Positions 17,295-29,237 of a stretch of DNA of 64,000 nt are shown here, piece by piece. The stretch's first letter is position 1, and each line of letters opens with the position of its first letter. Made by a program: the position numbers and the translations under genes. This DNA is from Candidatus Thalassarchaeum betae (GTDB taxonomy: Archaea > Thermoplasmatota > Poseidoniia > Poseidoniales > Thalassarchaeaceae). The DNA is taken from the NCBI GenBank assembly GCA_003193925.1, contig PSPG01000001.1:186001-250000 (forward strand), read 5' to 3'. Below the pieces are notes generated by a model. That model had not been told where the DNA came from. It saw only the letters and a program-made list of their open reading frames with translations, and did no database searches.

Positions 17295-17324
17295 ACCCGT
17301 CGGTCCCTTGAGGGACCGCCGGGT
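17295..17324 (+). promoter_or_regulatory. nuo operon leader hairpin ACCCG-T-CGGTCCC-TTGA-GGGACCG-C-CGGGT
   Basis: 7-bp plus 5-bp stem with one T/C mismatch, 7 nt before nuoA ATG 17332; TATA-like GGCTTATTTC near 17267-17276. Confidence 0.6.
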
Positions 17325-17331
17325 GATACCG

Positions 17332-17781
17332 ATGACCACAGTTCCCGAGGCCTACATCGCAGTCGCTGTGATGGCTCTCGTCGGCATCGGCTTCCCGGTG
17401 GTCACTTACATCGCTACGGCCTTCCTGAGGCCGAGGAAGGACCCCAACGATCCAAACATGATGCGATCCTGGCTGCTGCCAGGGTACGAGACCGACCAGA
17501 GCCTGTACATCCGCAGGGATAGCACCTACGAGTGCGGCGCCGAGCCGGTCGGGGACGCTCACATAAACTTCCACTTCCAGTATTACTGGTACGCCATCAT
17601 CTTCCTCGTCTTCGACATAGCGTTCATGTTCCTCGCCTTTGGCGGGGTCATCGCAATGCAGGACGGCATCCTAGAACGGCCGGAGGTCTACGGAGCTCTC
17701 GCCACCCTGACCGCGTTCATCGTGCTCATGGGCCTCGGCGTCTGGCACGTCTTCCGCAGGCGAGGCAGAATCTACATCTGA
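17332..17781 (+). CDS. nuoA: NADH-quinone oxidoreductase-like subunit A
   Basis: STYECGAEPVGDAHINFHFQYYWYAIIFLVFDIAFMFL is the NuoA signature. Confidence 0.9.
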   Translation: MTTVPEAYIAVAVMALVGIGFPVVTYIATAFLRPRKDPNDPNMMRSWLLPGYETDQSLYIRRDSTYECGAEPVGDAHINFHFQYYWYAIIFLVFDIAFMFLAFGGVIAMQDGILERPEVYGALATLTAFIVLMGLGVWHVFRRRGRIYI

Positions 17782-17790
17782 GGTGAGCGA

Positions 17791-18387
17791 ATGGCGGAGG
17801 ACGGGCAGAACTACTCGATGTTCAGCAGCAGGATGCTCGTCGATGTAGTCGGCGACGTCACCGACGAGGCACTCAAAGCCAGCCGCATCAAGGACATCCT
17901 CGGGGTCCTCGCTGGAAGAATCTTCAACTGGAGCCAGCGCAAGTCCCTGTTCCCGCTCCACCTCGGCATCAAGTGCTGCGCCCTCGAGATGGCCGCGGCA
18001 GGCGCAAGTCGCTTCGATGCCGAGCGCTTCGGAGTGTTCTTCCGCTCCAGCCCGAGGCAGTGCGACGTCCTGCTAGTCAACGGCCCGATCAGCAAGAAGT
18101 TCGCCGACCCCATCATTCGGCTCTGGGAGCAGATGCCCGAGCCCAAGTGGTGCATCGCCATGGGCGAGTGCTCGATCTCCGGCGGACCCTACTTCCAATC
18201 CTACAACATCCTCGAGGGCGTCGACACGATAATCCCCGTCGATGTCTACATCCCGGGATGCCCGCCTCGACCAGAGGCTCTGATTGACGGCTTCGACAAG
18301 CTGCGACAGAAAATCATCCGCATCGGTGCCATCCCGAGCGACGTCAGGCCGGAAACAGAGGCACCTCTCATCATCGGGGATGAGTAA
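17791..18387 (+). CDS. nuoB: NADH-quinone oxidoreductase-like subunit B
   Basis: GIKCCALEMAA...SSPRQCDVLLV...MGECSISGGPYFQSYN...VYIPGCPPRPEALIDG. Confidence 0.95.
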   Translation: MAEDGQNYSMFSSRMLVDVVGDVTDEALKASRIKDILGVLAGRIFNWSQRKSLFPLHLGIKCCALEMAAAGASRFDAERFGVFFRSSPRQCDVLLVNGPISKKFADPIIRLWEQMPEPKWCIAMGECSISGGPYFQSYNILEGVDTIIPVDVYIPGCPPRPEALIDGFDKLRQKIIRIGAIPSDVRPETEAPLIIGDE

Positions 18388-18399
18388 GGGGGGGTTTCT

Positions 18400-19059
18400 G
18401 TGTCTAAGATCGTTCCAATCAAGGTGCAGAAGGCCGAGGCCGAGAAACTGGCCGCTGCCGTCTCGCAGATGGCCGGCGTCGAGGCCGAGGTGGTCGAGCG
18501 GGTCAATGGGACGCATCCTCGCCCCGTCGTGGTCGGGAACAGCTCCCCTGAGAGTTGGAGGGCACTCGCTGAGATGCTCCACTCAGAGCACGGCGTCGAC
18601 CACTGCTCGATGGTCACCGGCATCCACTGGCCAGAGGGAGACGCGGACAAGAAGTGGGAGGTCATCTACCACCTGATGAGAATCGCGGTCAGAGACCCAC
18701 CAATCGAGGATGGCTTAGTCCGGCCAATCATCGTCGACCCCTCGAAGGTGAAGGGGGCGAGCACGCCTCTGGAGCTGGAGTTCCACGTTCACCTGCCTGA
18801 CACGAGGACTCCTTCGGTCGACTCGGTACAGGACATCTGGGTCGGAGCAGACTGGAACGAGAAGGAGACCTGGGACCTCGTCGGGATAGACTTCGACGGA
18901 CATCAGGGCATGAGACGAGTCCTGCTGCCGCATGAGACCCCGAAGGGCTACCATCCGCTACAGAAGCAGCATCACCTGCGTTACCACGGCTTCGAGGAGA
19001 TGTACGACGATTCCCAAGGATTCATGCGCAAGCCCGCTGATGCTGGCAGGATCAAGTGA
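18400..19059 (+). CDS. nuoC: NADH-quinone oxidoreductase-like subunit C
   Basis: ADWNEKETWDLVGIDFDGHQGMRRVLLPHETPKGYHPLQK is a NuoC-like C-terminus; position between nuoB and nuoD. Confidence 0.88.
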   Translation: MSKIVPIKVQKAEAEKLAAAVSQMAGVEAEVVERVNGTHPRPVVVGNSSPESWRALAEMLHSEHGVDHCSMVTGIHWPEGDADKKWEVIYHLMRIAVRDPPIEDGLVRPIIVDPSKVKGASTPLELEFHVHLPDTRTPSVDSVQDIWVGADWNEKETWDLVGIDFDGHQGMRRVLLPHETPKGYHPLQKQHHLRYHGFEEMYDDSQGFMRKPADAGRIK

Positions 19060-19068
19060 GGTGACAGA

Positions 19069-20205
19069 ATGGCAGAGATGTGGATATCGATGGGTCCCCA
19101 GCACCCGATGACCCACGGTCTTTGGACGCTCAAAGTCAAGGTCGACGGCGAGACCGTCGTCGACACCGAGCCCGACTTGGGATTCATCCACCGAGGCGTC
19201 GAGAAAATCTGCGAGGCTCGCGATTTCACCCAGATCACGACCTACTGCGACCGGCTCTGCTACGCCAGCGCCAACACCTGGTCCCATTCCTACATCTACG
19301 CGACCGAGGACCTGCTCGAAGTAGAGGTACCAGAGCGAGCAGAGTACATCCGACTGGTCGCCATCGAACTGCAGCGTATCGCGAGCCACCTGATGTGGCT
19401 CGGAGCCTACGGACCCGACACCGGCAACCTGAGCATCATGGTGTGGTGCCTGCGAGAGCGCGAGATGATGATGGATCTGCTGCAGGAGCTCGGCGGCTCG
19501 AGGCTGCACTACAACTTTCCACGTGTCGGCGGGGTGAAGCGCGACCTACCGCACGGCTTCGCCCAGCGAGCCCGCGCCAAGGTCAACCTGTTCCTCAATC
19601 GCATCCAGGAGTACGAAGCGCTGTTCGACGAGAGCACCGTCTTCCTCGTTCGCACTCAGGGCGTTGGCTACGCCAAGCCCGAGGAGATGGTGAACCACGG
19701 CGTCACCGGCCCCAACCTGCGAGCCGGTGGCGTGAACTACGACGTGCGCTGGGCCCATCCCTACGGTGTCTACAGCGAACTCGACTGGGAGCCACCGGTC
19801 GAGCGCTCGTCGATCAAGGGCGCCGACTGCTACGACCGCTACAGGGTCAGGGTGGAGGAGATGCGGCAGAGCGCGAACATGGTCTTGCAGGCTTTGGACA
19901 AGATGCCGGGAGGCGCGGACACATACCACGAGCCCGGCGACCCCATGATTCTCGCCAAGGCCCCCAGCCGCGCCCCGGAGGGGACCAGCGGAGCACACCA
20001 CTTCGAGGACAGCCGAGGTGAGTCGATGTTCTATATCGTCGGAGGAGGAGAGAACAGGGGAAAGCATCCCTACAGAGTCTCCATCCGCTCTCCGATGTTC
20101 ATCACGATTCCATACGCAGCGAAGTGCATGATTGGCTACAAGGTGGCCGACATCCCGGCCATCATGGGGTCCTTCGACCCGTGCATCGGGGAGACAGACA
20201 GGTGA
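19069..20205 (+). CDS. nuoD: NADH-quinone oxidoreductase-like subunit D
   Basis: MGPQHPMTHGLWTLKVKVDGETVVDTEPDLGFIHRGVEKICE; C-terminal ...GSFDPCIGETDR. Confidence 0.95.
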   Translation: MAEMWISMGPQHPMTHGLWTLKVKVDGETVVDTEPDLGFIHRGVEKICEARDFTQITTYCDRLCYASANTWSHSYIYATEDLLEVEVPERAEYIRLVAIELQRIASHLMWLGAYGPDTGNLSIMVWCLREREMMMDLLQELGGSRLHYNFPRVGGVKRDLPHGFAQRARAKVNLFLNRIQEYEALFDESTVFLVRTQGVGYAKPEEMVNHGVTGPNLRAGGVNYDVRWAHPYGVYSELDWEPPVERSSIKGADCYDRYRVRVEEMRQSANMVLQALDKMPGGADTYHEPGDPMILAKAPSRAPEGTSGAHHFEDSRGESMFYIVGGGENRGKHPYRVSIRSPMFITIPYAAKCMIGYKVADIPAIMGSFDPCIGETDR

Positions 20206-20214
20206 GGTGATAGC

Positions 20215-21792
20215 GTGGCGAGCAGCGATTGGTTGGATGTGAACGGCTGGTCAGAGTCGTTCTCGAGCTGGTCGATGGACAGCGTCCACGACGCCCTCCC
20301 ATCCGACGATATCGACTTGCAGATGACCATCCCGAGCACTTGGGCTTGGCCAGAGCCCATCACCATCGGCCCGATCTTCAACATGCAGGAAGACTTCGCG
20401 AGCATGCAGCCCGGCTTGGAGGCTTTCATGCATGCCACCATCATGTGCACAGTCGTCTTCACCGTCCTGATGCTGACGATGCTGGCGATCCCCTACATCG
20501 AGAGGAAGTTCATCGGTCGGCTGATGGACAGGCTCGGCGCCACGACCACCCTGAGAAGCCTCTGGGTCGGCGAGAGCGGAGTGACAGCAGGTGAGTGGTG
20601 GAAGCAGCTGCCGTTCGGCATGGGGACCCCCATTGGATGGACCGTCAACCTGCTGAATTCGATTTGGGGCAACAGCCACGAGTTGGAGACGGTCTCTCGG
20701 GTCAACAACCGCAGTTACCACGGTTACTGGTTCCTACTGCCAGGATTCTTCCAGGCGTTCGCCGACTTCCTGAAATTCGCGTCCAAGGAGCACATCGTTC
20801 CAAAGAACGCCGACAAGGTCGTCTTCGAGGTAGCTCCGGTCATCATCATCTCGACCACCATCCTGGTGTTCGCCTTCATCCCGTTCGGACCGCACATCTA
20901 TGCGGCCAACTCCGAACTCTCCCTCATCTTCATGATGGCTATCTTCGGAGTCGCTCCGCTGGGGGTCTTCTTCGCTGGGTGGGCATCCAACAACAAGTAC
21001 GCCCTGATTGGCGGAATGCGCTCCGCTGCCCAACTCACCGCCTACGAGATACCACTGCTCATCACAGTCCTCGGGGTCGCGGTGCTCAGCGGCTCGTTCA
21101 ACATTATCGAGATCGTCGACTTCCAGATGGGCCAGGATGAAGGCAACGTCTGGAACATCTTCCTGTTGCCTCTGGGTGCGGCCCTCTTCCTCATCACCAT
21201 GATCGCCGAGGTCGAGCGCATCCCGTTCGACATGCCCGAGGCCGAGGCCGAGCTCGTCGAGGGCTGGTGGACCGAGTACGGCGGCATCCGCTGGGGTCTG
21301 ATGTTCGCCGCCGAGTACATGCGCTCGTACGCCGCGTGCATCCTCTTCGCGCTCTTCTTCCTCGGTGGCTGGGAGGCACCGTTCCAGCACACGCTCTCCG
21401 GCCTGCCCACAGTGGGTGGCACCTTCGAGGCCGTGTTCGCTGCCACCCCAGGCCTCGTCTGGCTCCTGATCAAGGCTTGGCTGATGTTCGCCGTGTTCGT
21501 CTGGATCCGCGCCTCTCTACACAGGGTGCGCACGGACCAGATACTGGAGTTCGGATGGCGCTGGCTCCTGCCGCTCTCTTTGGTCAACCTCGTAGTAGCA
21601 ATCATACTGCGTCTTGAGTTCTGGACCGGGCAGCCTTGGGAGCTATGGGTCCCGGCCGCGCTCTCGCTGGCCGCGCTCGCACTGTTCGTGATACTCGCGA
21701 TTGACGAGGACGAGGACGCGCTGCAGGCCCAGCGCAGACCGTACAGCACGCAGGCTGTGGTCAAGGCATCGCCAGGGAGCCACAGGGACTAG
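20215..21792 (+). CDS. nuoH: NADH-quinone oxidoreductase-like subunit H, with N-terminal extension and internal insertion
   Basis: IPYIERKFIGR, QAFADFLKFASKEHIVPKNAD, EVERIPFDMPEAEAELVEGWWTEYGG. Confidence 0.93.
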   Translation: MASSDWLDVNGWSESFSSWSMDSVHDALPSDDIDLQMTIPSTWAWPEPITIGPIFNMQEDFASMQPGLEAFMHATIMCTVVFTVLMLTMLAIPYIERKFIGRLMDRLGATTTLRSLWVGESGVTAGEWWKQLPFGMGTPIGWTVNLLNSIWGNSHELETVSRVNNRSYHGYWFLLPGFFQAFADFLKFASKEHIVPKNADKVVFEVAPVIIISTTILVFAFIPFGPHIYAANSELSLIFMMAIFGVAPLGVFFAGWASNNKYALIGGMRSAAQLTAYEIPLLITVLGVAVLSGSFNIIEIVDFQMGQDEGNVWNIFLLPLGAALFLITMIAEVERIPFDMPEAEAELVEGWWTEYGGIRWGLMFAAEYMRSYAACILFALFFLGGWEAPFQHTLSGLPTVGGTFEAVFAATPGLVWLLIKAWLMFAVFVWIRASLHRVRTDQILEFGWRWLLPLSLVNLVVAIILRLEFWTGQPWELWVPAALSLAALALFVILAIDEDEDALQAQRRPYSTQAVVKASPGSHRD

Positions 21793-21803
21793 GAGGTGGG
21801 AAG

Positions 21804-22772
21804 ATGAGTTACAAGGCTAACACAGGACACCCGCACGCGACCCCGAACTTCCGCAATCTCCTCATCCGCCCGATGTGGATGACGCTGAAGACCGCGCTCA
21901 GGACAGTCCCCTTCGTCGGCAAGGCGAGATTCCTGAAGAACGACTACCACGGCCAACCCACGGTCATGGTCGACCAGACCACGATGGAAAGGGTCGGACC
22001 GGAGCATCCGAGCGCCGGCCAGAAGTTCGCTCCTGACCGGGAGACCAGCCAGGTCATGCCGTTCATCGAGCGTCCGGTCACGGTGATGTACCCGTACGAG
22101 CGTCTCGAGGACCTCGAGCCATGGCTCTTCGTCCCCGGAAATTACTTCGGTCGAATCGGAATAGTCTGGGAGACGTGCACATCGTGCAAGTTGTGTATCC
22201 GTGCCTGTCCAAACGACTGCCTCCACATGACCACTGAATTGCGCGTCGATGTTCTGGATCTCCCCGATGAGGACGATGAGTGGCACGGCTACGGAAGCGA
22301 ACTCGAGGAAGGCGGCTACGCAGCCAGGGAGAAGGAGGAATACGACGAGATCGCCGTCGGCTTCGACTTGATCAACGCCCACGCCGACGCGCCTCAGCAG
22401 TACGACTTCGCCGAGGTCATCGAGATCTCTGGCGACAAGGCGACTGTGCGGTGGTCCGACGGCTCGGGAATCGAGACCGTTGACTCATCCTCGCTGAAGC
22501 GAGCCGAGCAGGACATAGTCTCTGGGCAGATCGACCTAGGGCGATGCATGTTCTGCGGACTGTGCGCCGAGGCGTGCCCGTTCGAGTCCTTCTTCATGAC
22601 GAACGAGTATGACGGAATGTCGGGGTTCTCTCGCGAGGAGCTCTGGATGGACGCCAGTAGGACCCGCTTGCTCCCCGCGGTGCATCAGGAAAGAGTCGAC
22701 ATGGAACTCGCTAAGCGCGCTGAGAGGGAGGAGAAGAAGCGCTCTAGGAAGGCCGCTAGGGCGGAGGCCTGA
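21804..22772 (+). CDS. nuoI: NADH-quinone oxidoreductase-like subunit I, with ~110-aa spacer between 4Fe-4S motifs
   Basis: CTSCKLCIRACP and CMFCGLCAEACP motifs; operon position. Confidence 0.9.
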   Translation: MSYKANTGHPHATPNFRNLLIRPMWMTLKTALRTVPFVGKARFLKNDYHGQPTVMVDQTTMERVGPEHPSAGQKFAPDRETSQVMPFIERPVTVMYPYERLEDLEPWLFVPGNYFGRIGIVWETCTSCKLCIRACPNDCLHMTTELRVDVLDLPDEDDEWHGYGSELEEGGYAAREKEEYDEIAVGFDLINAHADAPQQYDFAEVIEISGDKATVRWSDGSGIETVDSSSLKRAEQDIVSGQIDLGRCMFCGLCAEACPFESFFMTNEYDGMSGFSREELWMDASRTRLLPAVHQERVDMELAKRAEREEKKRSRKAARAEA

Positions 22773-22777
22773 GGCGA

Positions 22778-23047
22778 ATGCAGATCGACTTCGAGGCGCT
22801 GGTGTTCGTCATTCTCGCAGCGACCGCCATAGGCGGCGCGCTGGGATGCGTCTACGCCCGCCGTGTCGCGCGCTCCCTGCTCTGTCTCATGATGACCTTC
22901 TTCGCGGTCGCGGGCGTCTTCGTGATGGCCAGCGCAGAGATGCTAGCCGCGGTCCAGATTCTCGTGTACCTCGGCTCGGTTATGCTCGTCGTCCAGTTCG
23001 GAGTCATGCTCACCCGCAGGCAGATACAGGAGGGTGACATCGAATGA
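22778..23047 (+). CDS. nuoJ1: NADH-quinone oxidoreductase-like subunit J, N-terminal part
   Basis: LMMTFFAVAGVFVMASAEMLAAVQILVYLGSVMLVVQFGVMLTRR is the NuoJ core; overlaps the next ORF by ATGA. Confidence 0.85.
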   Translation: MQIDFEALVFVILAATAIGGALGCVYARRVARSLLCLMMTFFAVAGVFVMASAEMLAAVQILVYLGSVMLVVQFGVMLTRRQIQEGDIE

Positions 23048-23310
23048 GGGCACTATCGGCACTGGCCCGATTTGGAGTATTCGCATTCATCCTCATCCTG
23101 CTCTCCGAGGTCATGTCACACCCGATGTGGGGCTCGAGTGAGACACCCCCATCCACACTCGACTTCGCTGTCGCTCTGTTCAATGAGTGGTCGATGGCGA
23201 TCGTGGTGCTGGGCGTGCTGCTGGCGATGGCCATGATCGGTGCTTCTTACCTCGTGCGCGACGAGCGTTTGGCCAACCTGATTTGGGACTTGGAAGGTGA
23301 TGACCAGTGA
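23044..23310 (+). CDS. nuoJ2: NADH-quinone oxidoreductase-like subunit J, C-terminal part
   Basis: Short 2-TM ORF between nuoJ1 and nuoK. Confidence 0.7.
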   Translation: MRALSALARFGVFAFILILLSEVMSHPMWGSSETPPSTLDFAVALFNEWSMAIVVLGVLLAMAMIGASYLVRDERLANLIWDLEGDDQ

Positions 23311-23609
23311 TCGAGGCCAGCTGGATAGCCGGCCTCGGCGTCATACTGTTCGGGGTGGGTCTGCTAGGCGCGTTCACTCGCAAGAACGCTATTGTGGTAC
23401 TGATGTGCATCGAGGTGATGCTGAACGCGGCCAACCTCAACTTCGTCGCCGGTGCTGCGCACTACGGCGACGTCAACGGCTGGGTGTTCACGGCTATCGC
23501 AATCGCAATCGCAGCCGCTGAGGTCGCAATCGGGCTCGCCATCCTGTTGTCTCTGTACAGCACGCAGGAGACGATCTCTCTCGACGAGGCGAATATTCTG
23601 AGGAACTAG
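23307..23609 (+). CDS. nuoK: NADH-quinone oxidoreductase-like subunit K
   Basis: LLGAFTRKNAIVVLMCIEVMLNAANLNFV...AAAEVAIGLAI. Confidence 0.92.
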   Translation: MIEASWIAGLGVILFGVGLLGAFTRKNAIVVLMCIEVMLNAANLNFVAGAAHYGDVNGWVFTAIAIAIAAAEVAIGLAILLSLYSTQETISLDEANILRN

Positions 23610-23617
23610 GTGGGAGC

Positions 23618-25945
23618 ATGAGCGAATCGAAGAACGAGTGGCACCTTCTACTGCCTATCCTGCCGTTCCTAGCTGTCGCACCTTACCTCCGTTCGATCGG
23701 TTGGGAGTCCGTCGATGCCGCCTACCTGATCGTCGTGATCCCGCTGCTGATCTTCCCCCTGATTCTGATTCTGGGACAGATGTTCAACGGCAACGTGACA
23801 TGGAAGCACCGTTACAAGGAGGGAGGTATCTTCGCCCTCGGCGCCCTTGCTCTGTCTCTCAGCATAGCCGTCTGGATACTCTATGACTACCTGGTCGGCT
23901 CAGCTCACTTCGAGTCCGCCTCCGTGGTCGACCCCTTCTCGTGGCTGACCTTCGACGTTCTCGAGCAGAACGGCTCGCAGTGGGAGCTCAGCACCGGCTT
24001 CGCCGACATTGGCGTGGGCGTCTGGATAGACTCAATCAGCTTGATGCTGCTGTTCGTCGCGACCTTCCTGTGCTTCCTGATCTGCTGGTTCAGCCTCGGC
24101 TACATGAACATGGACTCGATCAACGAGGACCGCAACCACCGCTTCTACGGGGAGTTCGTGCTCTTCGGCATCGGCATGTTCGGCATGGTCCTCGCTGACA
24201 ATTTCCTGTGGCTGTTCATCTTCTGGGAGATAATGGGGCTCTGCTCGTATCTCCTCATTGGCTTCTACTTCTGGAAGGAGAGTGCAGCCTACGCCGCCAA
24301 GAAGGCCTTCCTGACTACCCGGGTGGGCGATGTGTTCCTAGTGGTCGGCCTGGTGATTCTCTACGACATCTACGGCTCACTGGAGTTCGCCGTGATCTTC
24401 GACGACCCGTCGACTGGCGTCGGCGGATCGCTCGTCGACTCCGGGGAGCTGTTCTGGGCGCTGATGATGCTCTTCATCGGAGCCGTCGGCAAATCCGCCC
24501 AGTTCCCGCTCCATGTCTGGCTGCCCGACGCGATGGAGGGCCCGACGCCCGTCTCTGCGCTCATACACGCGGCGACGATGGTGAACGCGGGACTCTACCT
24601 CGTCGCTAGGATGGTGCCGTTCGTCGACATCGGCCACGGTGGTGTCGCAGGACTCGAGGACCTCGGCCTGATCATAGCCTGGATAGGCGGTATCACGGCG
24701 TTCATGGCCGCCGCCATCGCCTTCGTCCAGAACGACATCAAGAAAGTCCTTGCCTACTCGACGATGAGCCAACTCGCCTACATCTTCACAGGCTTGGGCG
24801 CAGCACTCTTCCTCCTCAACATCGGCGAGCAGAGCGCCGGCTACTTCGTGCTGGGCGCCTCGATGTTCCATCTGTTCAACCACGCTATGGCCAAGGGGAT
24901 GCTGTTCATGGCGAGCGGCTCGGTAGTCCACGAGCTCCACCACGCCCACGACCACGTCCGCAAGCTCAGCCTCAAGTACAGCGCTCACGAGGGCGAGGAC
25001 CCCTTTGCCTTCGATCCGCTGGACATGCGCAACATGGGCGGCCTGGCCGCAAGGATGCCGGTCACTGCAACAGCGATGATGTTCGGCTCGATGTCGATTA
25101 TCGGCATCCCACTCATCGGCGGCTTCTGGTCCAAGGAAGGAATCATCGCCGAGACTTGGGCCGCCTGCCTGAAAGAAGAGCCGATGATGTTCGTACCCGC
25201 CCTGCTCATCCTCGCGACTGCTGGCATGACGGGTTTCTACATGACGCGGATGTGGCTGATGACCTTCGCCGGCTCGCCCAAGAGCGAGGTGGTCGGGCAC
25301 GTCCACGAAGCGACGCCCTGGATCAAGGAACCGCTGATCATCCTAACTCTCTTCGCTGCCATCGGCGGATTCGCCCTTGCCGTGCTGGGAGCCGTCAACT
25401 TCCTCGGTAGCGAGCATGACCACCTCGGCTTGGCGCACGGCAGCGCTTTGGACGAGGTGATCTACCAGCTCGAGCACGCTTTCCTACCTGAGGACACCAA
25501 CATGCGACTGATCGGCTGGACCACGATACTACTGGCTCTGGTCATCGGACCCGTGATGGCTTCTCGCATCCACGGAGGGAGACTCATCGAGGGAGTCGAA
25601 GCCACGCCCCTGGTAGCCTGGCTGGTGAACCTGTCAAGCCGCCTCGGCTCGCAGGACGTCGACGAACTCGCCAACTCGCAACTCGCCGAAGCCCTGCAGA
25701 GGAGGCTGTACTTCGACGACCTATACGAGATGGTGTTGGCGAAGACCGTGGTTCCGTTCGCTGCATTTGCCGCCTGGTTCGACCAGAACGTCATCGACGG
25801 CGTCATCAAGCAGGTCGAGTCCAATTCGGTCTTCGGCTCGGTCCAGATTCGCAGATTGACCACGGGCAGCGCCCGCGACTACATCCTGATGGCAGCGGTC
25901 GGGATGCTCTCCGTCTTCGCACTGGTATGGGGGGTGAGCGCCTGA
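23618..25945 (+). CDS. nuoL: NADH-quinone oxidoreductase-like subunit L
   Basis: FWEIMGLCSYLLIGFYF...KSAQFPLHVWLPDAMEGPTPVSALIHAATMVNAG. Confidence 0.95.
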   Translation: MSESKNEWHLLLPILPFLAVAPYLRSIGWESVDAAYLIVVIPLLIFPLILILGQMFNGNVTWKHRYKEGGIFALGALALSLSIAVWILYDYLVGSAHFESASVVDPFSWLTFDVLEQNGSQWELSTGFADIGVGVWIDSISLMLLFVATFLCFLICWFSLGYMNMDSINEDRNHRFYGEFVLFGIGMFGMVLADNFLWLFIFWEIMGLCSYLLIGFYFWKESAAYAAKKAFLTTRVGDVFLVVGLVILYDIYGSLEFAVIFDDPSTGVGGSLVDSGELFWALMMLFIGAVGKSAQFPLHVWLPDAMEGPTPVSALIHAATMVNAGLYLVARMVPFVDIGHGGVAGLEDLGLIIAWIGGITAFMAAAIAFVQNDIKKVLAYSTMSQLAYIFTGLGAALFLLNIGEQSAGYFVLGASMFHLFNHAMAKGMLFMASGSVVHELHHAHDHVRKLSLKYSAHEGEDPFAFDPLDMRNMGGLAARMPVTATAMMFGSMSIIGIPLIGGFWSKEGIIAETWAACLKEEPMMFVPALLILATAGMTGFYMTRMWLMTFAGSPKSEVVGHVHEATPWIKEPLIILTLFAAIGGFALAVLGAVNFLGSEHDHLGLAHGSALDEVIYQLEHAFLPEDTNMRLIGWTTILLALVIGPVMASRIHGGRLIEGVEATPLVAWLVNLSSRLGSQDVDELANSQLAEALQRRLYFDDLYEMVLAKTVVPFAAFAAWFDQNVIDGVIKQVESNSVFGSVQIRRLTTGSARDYILMAAVGMLSVFALVWGVSA

Positions 25946-27543
25946 TCGACGACCCCCTGTCTGTACTCACCCTCCTACCTCTGGCCGCTGGTCTGATCTT
26001 GCTGGTCCTGCCTCAGATCCTGCCCAGCCGATCTGCAGGCGGCCTCATGCGCGTTTCCCGCAACATCAGCATGGGCGTGGCGCTTGCCATCGCCGTGCTC
26101 ACCACCATGCTGTTCGTCGGCGAGATCGGCAATATAGACTGGACCAACATCACCCAAGGAGGCTACGTCCTCGAGAACGAGCCCGTGTCCCTCATCCCCT
26201 CGATCGGGGTGACTTGGAAGGTAGGCGCAGACGCACTGTCTTTCCCGATGATCTGGCTCACAGCGGTCCTCATCCCTGTCTCGATGCTGGTCGAGTGGGA
26301 CGCCAAGAGGGGCCACCTCTTCCACCCACTGCTCCTGCTGATGGAAAGCGCGCTCATAGGAGTCTTCGTCGCCCTCGACCTGTTCGTCTTCTTCGTCTTC
26401 TGGGAGCTGACCCTGATTCCGATGTTCCTGCTCATCCTCGTATGGGGTGGGGAGGACCGGCGCTATGCGGCGATGAAGTTCTTCATCTACACATTCACGG
26501 CGAGCGTCTTCATGCTGGTCGGCATCCTCGTCATGTACTTCCACACCGATTCAATCTCCGGCCTCGGCAGCCTGTCAGGGCACCACTTCGACTTGGTTGC
26601 AATGACCGCTCAGGACAATCTGATTCCGAGTGAGGGCCTCAGGCATTTCGTCTGGCTTCTCCTGCTCATCGGCTTCGCCACCAAGATGCCCAGCGTCCCG
26701 TTTCACACTTGGCTGCCTGACGCCCACGTCGAAGCTCCCACAGCAGGCTCTATGCTGCTGGCTGGAGTGATGCTGAAGATGGGCGCCTACGGTTTCCTGC
26801 GAATCGCGGTCACTGTCTTCCCCGAGTCCACGGTGGTGTTCATCCCGCTGCTGATAGTGCTGGGGATGGTGAGTCTGGTCTACGGCGCATGGGTCTGCAT
26901 GGGCCAGACCAACCTCAAGCGCATGGTCGCCTACTCCTCGGTGTCTCACATGGGGCTGATCTTCCTCGGCATCGCCACGATGCAGCCGTTGGGCGTCGCC
27001 GGCGCGCTGTTCATGATGTTCGCTCACGGCATCATCAGCCCGCTTCTGTTCGCGGTGGCTGGCGCCTTCAAGCACCACTACCACACGCTAGAGATCGGCG
27101 CGATGAGGGGCATGGCGCACCACAGTCCGTGGCTTGCGGGACACATGATGTTCGGCTGGATGGCGAGCCTCGGTCTGCCGCTGCTCGCCGGCTTCGTCGC
27201 CGAGGTCACCATCATGATCGCATTCTGGATGTCCTTCGGCTGGCTGGTCCTGCTGCCGGCACTCACTCTCATCGTCACAGCCGCGTACTTCGTGACCTCG
27301 ATGCAGCGTACCATCTTCGAGTCGAACGACCCGCATCAGGGGGTCCTGCCTGACACCCTGCACGGCGAGAATCCCAGTGACATAACCTGGCATGAGAACA
27401 TCGGGATGTTCGTACTCGTCGGCATGATCGCGCTGTTTGGCATCATGCCGTTCATCTTCTGGGACATGATGTCCGACTGGAGTTCCGGCTTCGTGCTCGA
27501 TACGCTGGTGGAAGCGATGCAGTCGCAGGGGTGGAAGCCATGA
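25927..27543 (+). CDS. nuoM: NADH-quinone oxidoreductase-like subunit M
   Basis: FWELTLIPMFLLILVWGGEDRRYAAMKFFIYT...PFHTWLPDAHVEAPTAGSMLLAGVMLKMGAYG. Confidence 0.95.
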   Translation: MGGERLIDDPLSVLTLLPLAAGLILLVLPQILPSRSAGGLMRVSRNISMGVALAIAVLTTMLFVGEIGNIDWTNITQGGYVLENEPVSLIPSIGVTWKVGADALSFPMIWLTAVLIPVSMLVEWDAKRGHLFHPLLLLMESALIGVFVALDLFVFFVFWELTLIPMFLLILVWGGEDRRYAAMKFFIYTFTASVFMLVGILVMYFHTDSISGLGSLSGHHFDLVAMTAQDNLIPSEGLRHFVWLLLLIGFATKMPSVPFHTWLPDAHVEAPTAGSMLLAGVMLKMGAYGFLRIAVTVFPESTVVFIPLLIVLGMVSLVYGAWVCMGQTNLKRMVAYSSVSHMGLIFLGIATMQPLGVAGALFMMFAHGIISPLLFAVAGAFKHHYHTLEIGAMRGMAHHSPWLAGHMMFGWMASLGLPLLAGFVAEVTIMIAFWMSFGWLVLLPALTLIVTAAYFVTSMQRTIFESNDPHQGVLPDTLHGENPSDITWHENIGMFVLVGMIALFGIMPFIFWDMMSDWSSGFVLDTLVEAMQSQGWKP

Positions 27544-29237
27544 GTTCGATTTTCACTGTAATAGACGCCGAGACGGCGGTACTCATCCTGCCCGAACTCA
27601 TCATGCTGGCGGGTGTGCTCACGATGATCCTCATTCCCAATCTCGGAGACGCCACGATGCGAATCCCACTCACCACCACGCGCGTCCCCATCCTGTTCGG
27701 AGGCACGAGGTTCGCAACCACAAGCAACCCGAAGATGCCCAATCAGATTGCTCTGGCGACCTTCGGACTAGCACTGGCCTCAGCCTTCCTGTTCCTAGGC
27801 GACGAGGGAGATGTCGGGAACACCCTGCATGTCGATGCGTTCAGCAGGATATTCACGATGATATTCACAGCAGCTCTGCTGCTGGCCTCGGTCGCTACGA
27901 CACACCGACTACCAGCGCGGCCCAAGGTGACCGCACCGATCGAGTCGGACTCGTCGGCAAGGGCCGACATGAAGGTCAACGCGCTGATAGACAACCGCCG
28001 GCAGGTCGACTTCCACATCCTACTAGTCACGACCGGCCTCGGAATGAGCCTGATGGCGATGGCCACCAACCTGTTCATGCTGTTCGTCTGCCTCGAGCTC
28101 GCCTCGCTCTCCTCGTACATCCTAGTGGCCTTCCACAAAGAGCTGGATGTCGGCGGCGAAGCCGGGACGAAGTACTTCATCGTCGGCTCGGTGCTATCCG
28201 CGGTCGGAATCTACGGGATGTCACTGCTGTATCTGTGGAACGGCAACTTGGACATGGCCGACTTGGCGGCCTCGTGGGACGCCATGGAGACGATGGACCC
28301 GTTCGCTGCAATCGGCGTCGGCCTGATGCTGGTCGCGTTCGGCTTCAAGGTCGGCGCAGCGCCCTTCCACCTCGCCGTGCCCGACGCCTACGCAGGTGCA
28401 TCCTCCCCTGTAGCAGGGGTTCTGGCCACGGCCTCGAAGGCGATGGGGTTCGTCGCCCTCATGCGACTCCTGCTAATCGTCACTATGCCAGTCGAAGGGG
28501 GCGCGTTCTGGCTCATCGTCCTCTCCATAATCGCAGTAGTGACGATGACGTGGGGGAATCTGGCAGCGCTCACCAGCGACAACCCGAAGCGCATGCTCGC
28601 GTACTCGAGCGTGGCCCACGCTGGCTACATGCTCGCTGCGCTCGCAGCCATCGGCAGTGGGCTGGCCGACTCCGATGGCACAGCCCTGCTAATAACCGCG
28701 GTGGTGTTCCACCTCGTCGTCCTCGTGCTGTTCAAACTCGGCCCATTCCTGGTCCTCTCGATGCTCGAGACCGAAGGGCGCAGCCACCAGTTGGAGTGCC
28801 TCCACGGTCTAGCTCGAAGGGACCCGGCAGTCGCCGCCTCGATGTTCGTCTTCATGCTCTCCCTCGCGGGAGTACCGCCGTTCTCCGGGTTCCTGTCCAA
28901 ACTCTTGATGATCAACGGTATCGTCAACGTCTCAGCCGGCACTGGGTCACTGTCTTCGACATCGGTCATGTCCTGGACCCAAGGCGTCGACCCGATCTTC
29001 TGGCTGGCCGTTGCCATAGTCCTCAACAGCGCCCTTTCACTGTTCTACTACCTGAGAATCGGAGTCGTGATGTTCTCCGAAGCTCCTGAGAGCGAGAGGA
29101 AGCTCAGGCGCACTGGCTCCCTCAGGCTGGCCATAGTGGGATGCGCGCTACTCACTCTGCTCTTCGGAATCGGCCCGATGAGCGAGTCACTCCTAGACAT
29201 AGTCAGCGCCGCAGTCGACTCCTTCATGGGCAACTGA
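27540..29237 (+). CDS. nuoN: NADH-quinone oxidoreductase-like subunit N
   Basis: VCLELASLSSYILVAFHK...GAAPFHLAVPDAYAGASSPVAGVLATASKAMGF; ATGA overlap with nuoM. Confidence 0.93.
   Translation: MSSIFTVIDAETAVLILPELIMLAGVLTMILIPNLGDATMRIPLTTTRVPILFGGTRFATTSNPKMPNQIALATFGLALASAFLFLGDEGDVGNTLHVDAFSRIFTMIFTAALLLASVATTHRLPARPKVTAPIESDSSARADMKVNALIDNRRQVDFHILLVTTGLGMSLMAMATNLFMLFVCLELASLSSYILVAFHKELDVGGEAGTKYFIVGSVLSAVGIYGMSLLYLWNGNLDMADLAASWDAMETMDPFAAIGVGLMLVAFGFKVGAAPFHLAVPDAYAGASSPVAGVLATASKAMGFVALMRLLLIVTMPVEGGAFWLIVLSIIAVVTMTWGNLAALTSDNPKRMLAYSSVAHAGYMLAALAAIGSGLADSDGTALLITAVVFHLVVLVLFKLGPFLVLSMLETEGRSHQLECLHGLARRDPAVAASMFVFMLSLAGVPPFSGFLSKLLMINGIVNVSAGTGSLSSTSVMSWTQGVDPIFWLAVAIVLNSALSLFYYLRIGVVMFSEAPESERKLRRTGSLRLAIVGCALLTLLFGIGPMSESLLDIVSAAVDSFMGN

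Follow-up and report, generated by a model that had tools for sequence, protein, structure and literature searches.

A conserved insert with a predicted SH3-like barrel at the probable electron entrance of complex I in Marine Group II archaea

The NuoI subunit of Marine Group II archaea (Ca. Poseidoniales) is a conserved, order-specific variant form of NuoI, in which a long acidic insert, predicted to fold in part as a small SH3-like barrel, separates the two 4Fe-4S motifs. We analysed it in a window of 64,000 nucleotides from Candidatus Thalassarchaeum betae (contig PSPG01000001.1, positions 186,001 to 250,000), which belongs to a Marine Group II genome of 1.48 Mb. The features discussed below are the following, in window coordinates:

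17308..29237, + strand: nuoABCDHIJJKLMN operon, complex I without NuoEFG (open reading frames and family matches)
20545..20718, + strand: insertion in the TMH1-TMH2 loop of NuoH, residues 111-168 (order-specific, same complex)
21804..22772, + strand: nuoI, a single open reading frame of 322 amino acids; two-motif NuoI with a long intermotif insert
22176..22211, + strand: motif 1, CTSCKLCIRACP, residues 125-136 (from the sequence; Cys invariant in 48 orthologues)
22212..22544, + strand: intermotif region, residues 137-247, 111 amino acids (23-43 residues in relatives)
22251..22316, + strand: acidic segment VLDLPDEDDEWHGYGSELEEGG, residues 150-171 (conserved in both Marine Group II families)
22317..22514, + strand: predicted SH3-like barrel, residues 172-237 (AlphaFold2 strands, Foldseek, conservation)
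22545..22580, + strand: motif 2, CMFCGLCAEACP, residues 248-259 (aligns to the second motif of relatives)

In the window, nuoI is preceded by nuoABCDH and followed by nuoJJKLMN, and its product carries motif 1 at C125-C135/P136 and motif 2 at C248-C258. The protein is matched by Pfam Fer4 and by the NCBIfam NuoI model, to which both halves fit. The latter match (TIGR01971, E=2.2e-20) comes in two pieces flanking the insert, and it is because the insert splits it that the total of 72 bits falls under the 113-bit cut-off. The long hairpin is a variant feature and gives no ground to drop the protein from the NuoI/NdhI family. The preliminary description of this DNA had placed about 111 residues between the motifs, as against roughly 30 in canonical NuoI; the measured length is 111, with the coordinates exact, and the canonical figure agrees with the 23-43 found in thirteen other Thermoplasmatota families. 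A frameshift or assembly error is ruled out, since every Marine Group II genome that has NuoI keeps the frame open and conserved. Also ruled out is the identification of motif 2 with the third motif of the four-motif NuoI of relatives: it aligns to their second motif, and the usual NuoI C-terminal sequence comes after it. The distance from motif 1 to motif 3 in those relatives (107-110) is close to the Marine Group II gap by coincidence.

Gap lengths were taken between the final Cys of motif 1 and the initial Cys of motif 2. By this measure the gap is 112 in the window and 108-113 in every Marine Group II orthologue measured, from both families, while it amounts to 42 in the sister family f3 of the same class, to 27-33 in Thermoplasmatales-type families, and to 23-43 across all thirteen other Thermoplasmatota families measured. 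Whole-genome searches found nuoI in 18 of the 18 genera sampled from the two Marine Group II families, and 111 distinct insert sequences were gathered. Two drafts without NuoI (G018 and G019) are also without NuoD, so that the operon is missing from both. When the insert profile was searched against a 194-genome sample of the phylum, each Marine Group II genome gave a single match, invariably in NuoI, and the remaining genomes gave none at E<=0.01. The insert is specific to Marine Group II within the phylum searched. The possibility that it might be general in archaeal FpoI/NuoI proved false within Thermoplasmatota, where it is confined to one order, and the suggested search for it in other proteins returned none besides Marine Group II NuoI in the same sample. 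Two database entries look misassigned: a contig listed as viral (IMGVR_UViG_3300027553_000062, L178, 2-448) carries a Marine Group II NuoI, and one titled Gammaproteobacteria bacterium SAT84 (PAJW01000011.1, L150) has a typical Marine Group II NuoI. The search of viral contigs gave one Marine Group II fragment and no more.

Within the order, NuoI shows further variation. In the second Marine Group II family (L048, L050, L053, L074-L076, L078-L087) motif 2 reads CGLCMEAC[GSDN], with Gly, Ser, Asp or Asn following the last Cys where Pro is otherwise nearly universal. In genus g14 (L050 1096-2463, - strand, and L052; frames of 455-456 amino acids) the protein is longer by about 125 residues at its C-terminus, and this extension closes with a helix-hairpin-helix-like stretch, IKGIGPFIEEKLNALGIYTFSQI.

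The fold of the insert was predicted with AlphaFold2, both within the whole protein and alone. The whole-NuoI model, built on a 78-row alignment, is weak (mean pLDDT 48.4), its best part being residues 201-230 at 87-88; the weakness outside the insert is perhaps due to an alignment composed of close relatives only. Strands are predicted at residues 172-176, 200-209, 212-217, 223-227 and 232-240. Modelled alone, the insert reaches a mean pLDDT of 60.7, with a core at 76-78, and is predicted to form a small beta barrel with the same strands minus the last. With this model, Foldseek ranks first, among 350,542 PDB chains, the NdhO subunit of the T. elongatus NDH-1 (E=6.3e-3, probability 1.00). Below it, with weaker E values, come mainly SH3, Tudor, PWWP and KOW folds of a generic kind. 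With the whole-NuoI model, NdhO ranks third. The SH3/Tudor-like barrel proposed from the letters in the preliminary description is thus supported by the confident core and by the fold matches, and we conclude from the models that the insert is a predicted SH3-like barrel, of which NdhO would be the closest solved resemblance. Pfam gave nothing over cut-off on the insert. Two other candidate relatives were discarded as noise, namely the 'putative oxygenase' 4nao (E=0.004 with a narrow profile vs 0.97 with a broad one) and RNA-free RNase P (single-sequence matches, E=0.11).

The insert is well conserved. Residues G162, G170, H193, G210 and W217 are the same in all sequences of both families, and A174, F202, R216 and others nearly so; a loop at about residues 176-186 is variable. 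The acidic segment 150-171 is kept in the window's own family as VLDTAEEGDEWHGYGSELE.GG. The within-genus median dN/dS, for which dS is near saturation, is about 0.05 for the insert vs 0.02 for the cluster core, and in the closest pair the values are about 0.13 and 0.02, respectively. The insert is under purifying selection. Unconserved disorder, the outcome that would have counted against a functional domain, came out false: disorder is ruled out for the barrel core, which is predicted folded, and variability occurs only around residues 176-186. The strongly acidic character first described was also confirmed, with a net charge of -20 over residues 143-240, -13 over residues 150-188 and, for the 111 orthologous inserts, a mean of -16.5 per 100 residues, whereas in relatives the charge of the intermotif hairpin ranges from near neutral to basic (-3 to +4). 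The 42-residue hairpin of the sister family (L058-L065) contains AWYGSHLAKRK, which faintly resembles the DEWHGYGSELEEGGYAAREK segment of the insert; going by this likeness, the acidic segment may predate the barrel.

The position of the insert can be read from the photosynthetic NDH-1. In the ferredoxin-bound NDH-1L, NdhI touches ferredoxin through Lys86, Lys89 and Lys91 (PMC7021789), and by our count on the PDB sequence of T. elongatus NdhI all three fall in the stretch bounded by C73 (motif 1) and C103 (motif 2) (NKELKKKELKHYSIDFGVC). In a second NDH-1 structure ferredoxin is contacted chiefly by the NdhI hairpin, along with NdhH, and the hairpin projects free above the hydrophilic arm (PMC6992706). 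The Marine Group II insert lies in this same hairpin, and homology to these proteins therefore strongly supports the earlier proposal that the insert is near the point of electron entry. The chloroplast and cyanobacterial NdhI are the best solved relatives of this NuoI in sequence searches, and NdhI likewise belongs, as a core subunit with two clusters, to a complex that has no NuoEFG. On the other hand, its hairpin has 29 residues and is basic, whereas that of Marine Group II has 111, is acidic and holds the predicted barrel.

As to the donor, NuoF is absent from the window's own genome, while control genomes give a positive signal; 6 of 60 relatives have NuoF-like proteins only, all below cut-off. 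This agrees with the initial view of a complex lacking NuoEFG. In a few Marine Group II genomes (G016:C20, G026:C47, G032:C15, G036:C82, G045:C12) there is a NuoF-related protein of 625-652 amino acids that scores well below cut-off and may belong to another enzyme as its diaphorase subunit. Of 40 genomes, 38 have a member of the 2-oxoacid:ferredoxin oxidoreductase family PF01855, which makes reduced ferredoxin a plausible donor, and the own genome encodes an FdxA-like ferredoxin (L181) that is very acidic (net -18), with two-motif proteins (L179 and L180) as further candidates. The donor would most probably be a ferredoxin reduced by 2-oxoacid:ferredoxin oxidoreductase. The absence of NuoEFG does not by itself require the insert, since relatives with the same NuoA-N set manage without it.

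A second difference concerns the C-terminus of NuoI. In the sister family and in Thermoplasmatales-type archaea (L066-L073, L077) the protein has four CxxCxxCxxxCP motifs in one frame, owing to an extra two-cluster ferredoxin domain fused C-terminally, while the Marine Group II protein has two motifs. The two forms share the operon order, the NuoI core and the CPNxC/CPTxC feature; the four-motif form combines the second two-cluster domain with a short, near-neutral to basic hairpin, and Marine Group II has neither. In a tree of NuoD, Marine Group II and the sister family group together within the four-motif set, with moderate support, which makes loss the simpler reading: Marine Group II probably lost the extra ferredoxin domain of NuoI. 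A two-motif NuoI with a short loop, having neither the extra domain nor the insert, also exists in Thermoplasmatota. The missing extra domain comes on top of the insert, so that more than one feature of the entrance has changed, and this points to a rebuilt electron entrance in the Marine Group II complex I.

We therefore favour, with middling confidence, a reading in which the insert of this NuoEFG-less complex forms part of an electron-entry platform, shaping, selecting or gating the docking of a soluble donor above cluster N6a. The extra ferredoxin domain of NuoI would have been lost, and an SH3-like barrel, together with its conserved acidic entry segment, would have been inserted into the hairpin joining the two cluster-binding halves; the barrel would then shape, select or gate the access to N6a of the donor, presumably ferredoxin reduced by 2-oxoacid:ferredoxin oxidoreductase. 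Such a docking or gating role is what we infer for the insert. Direct attraction is unlikely, considering that the insert is acidic, the NdhI hairpin basic and the FdxA-like ferredoxin strongly negative. With both the barrel and its likely donor acidic, a selector, a gate, a lid or a contact through a basic face is likelier than an attractive landing pad. In the photosynthetic NDH-1, comparable work is done by NdhO, NdhS and NdhV, which are separate small subunits; NdhO sits at the ferredoxin end of the complex and appears to lower its activity (PMC7021789), which by analogy would fit a gating role of the insert. A bolder version is doubtful in our opinion, namely that Marine Group II gave up the two-cluster ferredoxin domain of NuoI, took on an NdhO-like SH3 barrel in the docking hairpin instead, and so evolved independently, or captured by fusion, an entry module of the NDH-1 type.

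Alternatively, the acidic barrel could be a protective lid over N6a, a cluster that the loss of the C-terminal ferredoxin domain would have left bare; the lid would bind no donor and instead bar oxygen or non-cognate carriers, limiting electron leakage in an aerobic archaeon of surface waters. We consider this possible, if somewhat improbable. The strong negative charge over 111 sequences, the lack in Marine Group II of the extra two-cluster domain of relatives and the apparent lowering of NDH-1 activity by NdhO, the closest fold, all agree with a lid. However, conserved residues of exposed type (H193, W160/H161) suggest a specific partner, and the phylum contains the short-loop, two-motif NuoI that dispenses with both the extra domain and the insert.

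The barrel could also act as a structural brace or assembly element, packing on NuoB, NuoC or NuoD and stabilising the peripheral arm amid a general elaboration of the complex. Indeed, NuoH too has an order-specific insertion of fixed length: its TMH1-TMH2 loop runs to 68-69 residues in every Marine Group II locus measured and to 7-8 in Thermoplasmatales-type loci, with the conserved motif LRSLWVGExGVTAGEWW...PFGxGxPIG...GN and no Pfam match. Other subunits are likewise longer than those of relatives. Against a brace, the free projection of the NDH-1 hairpin (PMC6992706) makes a direct contact with NuoH unlikely, and we regard this explanation as improbable. The C-terminus of NuoH carries in addition, in Marine Group II, a hydrophobic stretch (window 21634-21789) that is absent from all relatives compared and is probably one more transmembrane helix.

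A closer kinship with NdhO, in which the barrel would be a true NdhO homologue built into NuoI, is very improbable. For this comparison the NdhO and NdhS letters were copied from PDB alignments, the look-ups being seeded with NdhO- and NdhS-like sequences. Besides the small SH3-like barrel, predicted in the case of the insert, and the top fold match, the two share H..P..Y.F..EVxD..GD.A.(V/I) around the second and third strands. Furthermore, NdhO is one of two matches in an hmmsearch with an insert profile drawn mostly from one family (E=0.81), and the hhalign score of insert vs NdhO, 24.4, exceeds all those of 150 column shuffles (maximum 18.5) and 120 real-protein windows (maximum 17.1). However, the hhalign probability is 29 per cent over just 18 columns, the broader two-family profile gives no NdhO match, and Pfam NdhO (PF11910) finds no significant match in 60 genomes and none in the own genome, its lone match inside NuoI being in G046 at E=3.1. 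Myosin_N, another SH3-like family, matches the insert about as well by Pfam, under cut-off. NdhO is moreover a separate subunit of 70 residues with the basic Lys4 and Lys5 near ferredoxin, whereas the insert is acidic and lies inside NuoI. Membership of the NdhO family is thus unsupported by sequence, with no match over the PF11910 cut-off, and a plasmid search for further NdhO found none. NdhS and its counterpart CRR31 have an SH3-like fold at the NDH-1 apex as well, NdhS lying in the NdhI groove (PMC7021789), but their comparison with the insert is within the noise: the hhalign score of 12.7 (probability 0.6 per cent) lies among the decoys, and membership of the NdhS family is likewise unsupported by sequence.

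Finally, a neutral loop expansion devoid of function is scarcely credible, for although the sister-family hairpin is already slightly longer, at 42 residues, and positions 176-186 vary, the insert keeps a length of 108-113 order-wide, many invariant residues, purifying selection and a predicted fold.

Marine Group II archaea are abundant in the sea worldwide and have been described as being without cultured isolates, and a survey labels their complex I a canonical NADH dehydrogenase (PMC6336850). NuoF is nevertheless missing from the own genome and from nearly all relatives searched, which puts the electron donor in question, and a conserved, lineage-specific domain at the donor-docking hairpin is a concrete handle for probing it. 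If our reading is true, small SH3-like barrels would recur at the ferredoxin entrances of complex I-type enzymes, here within a core subunit.
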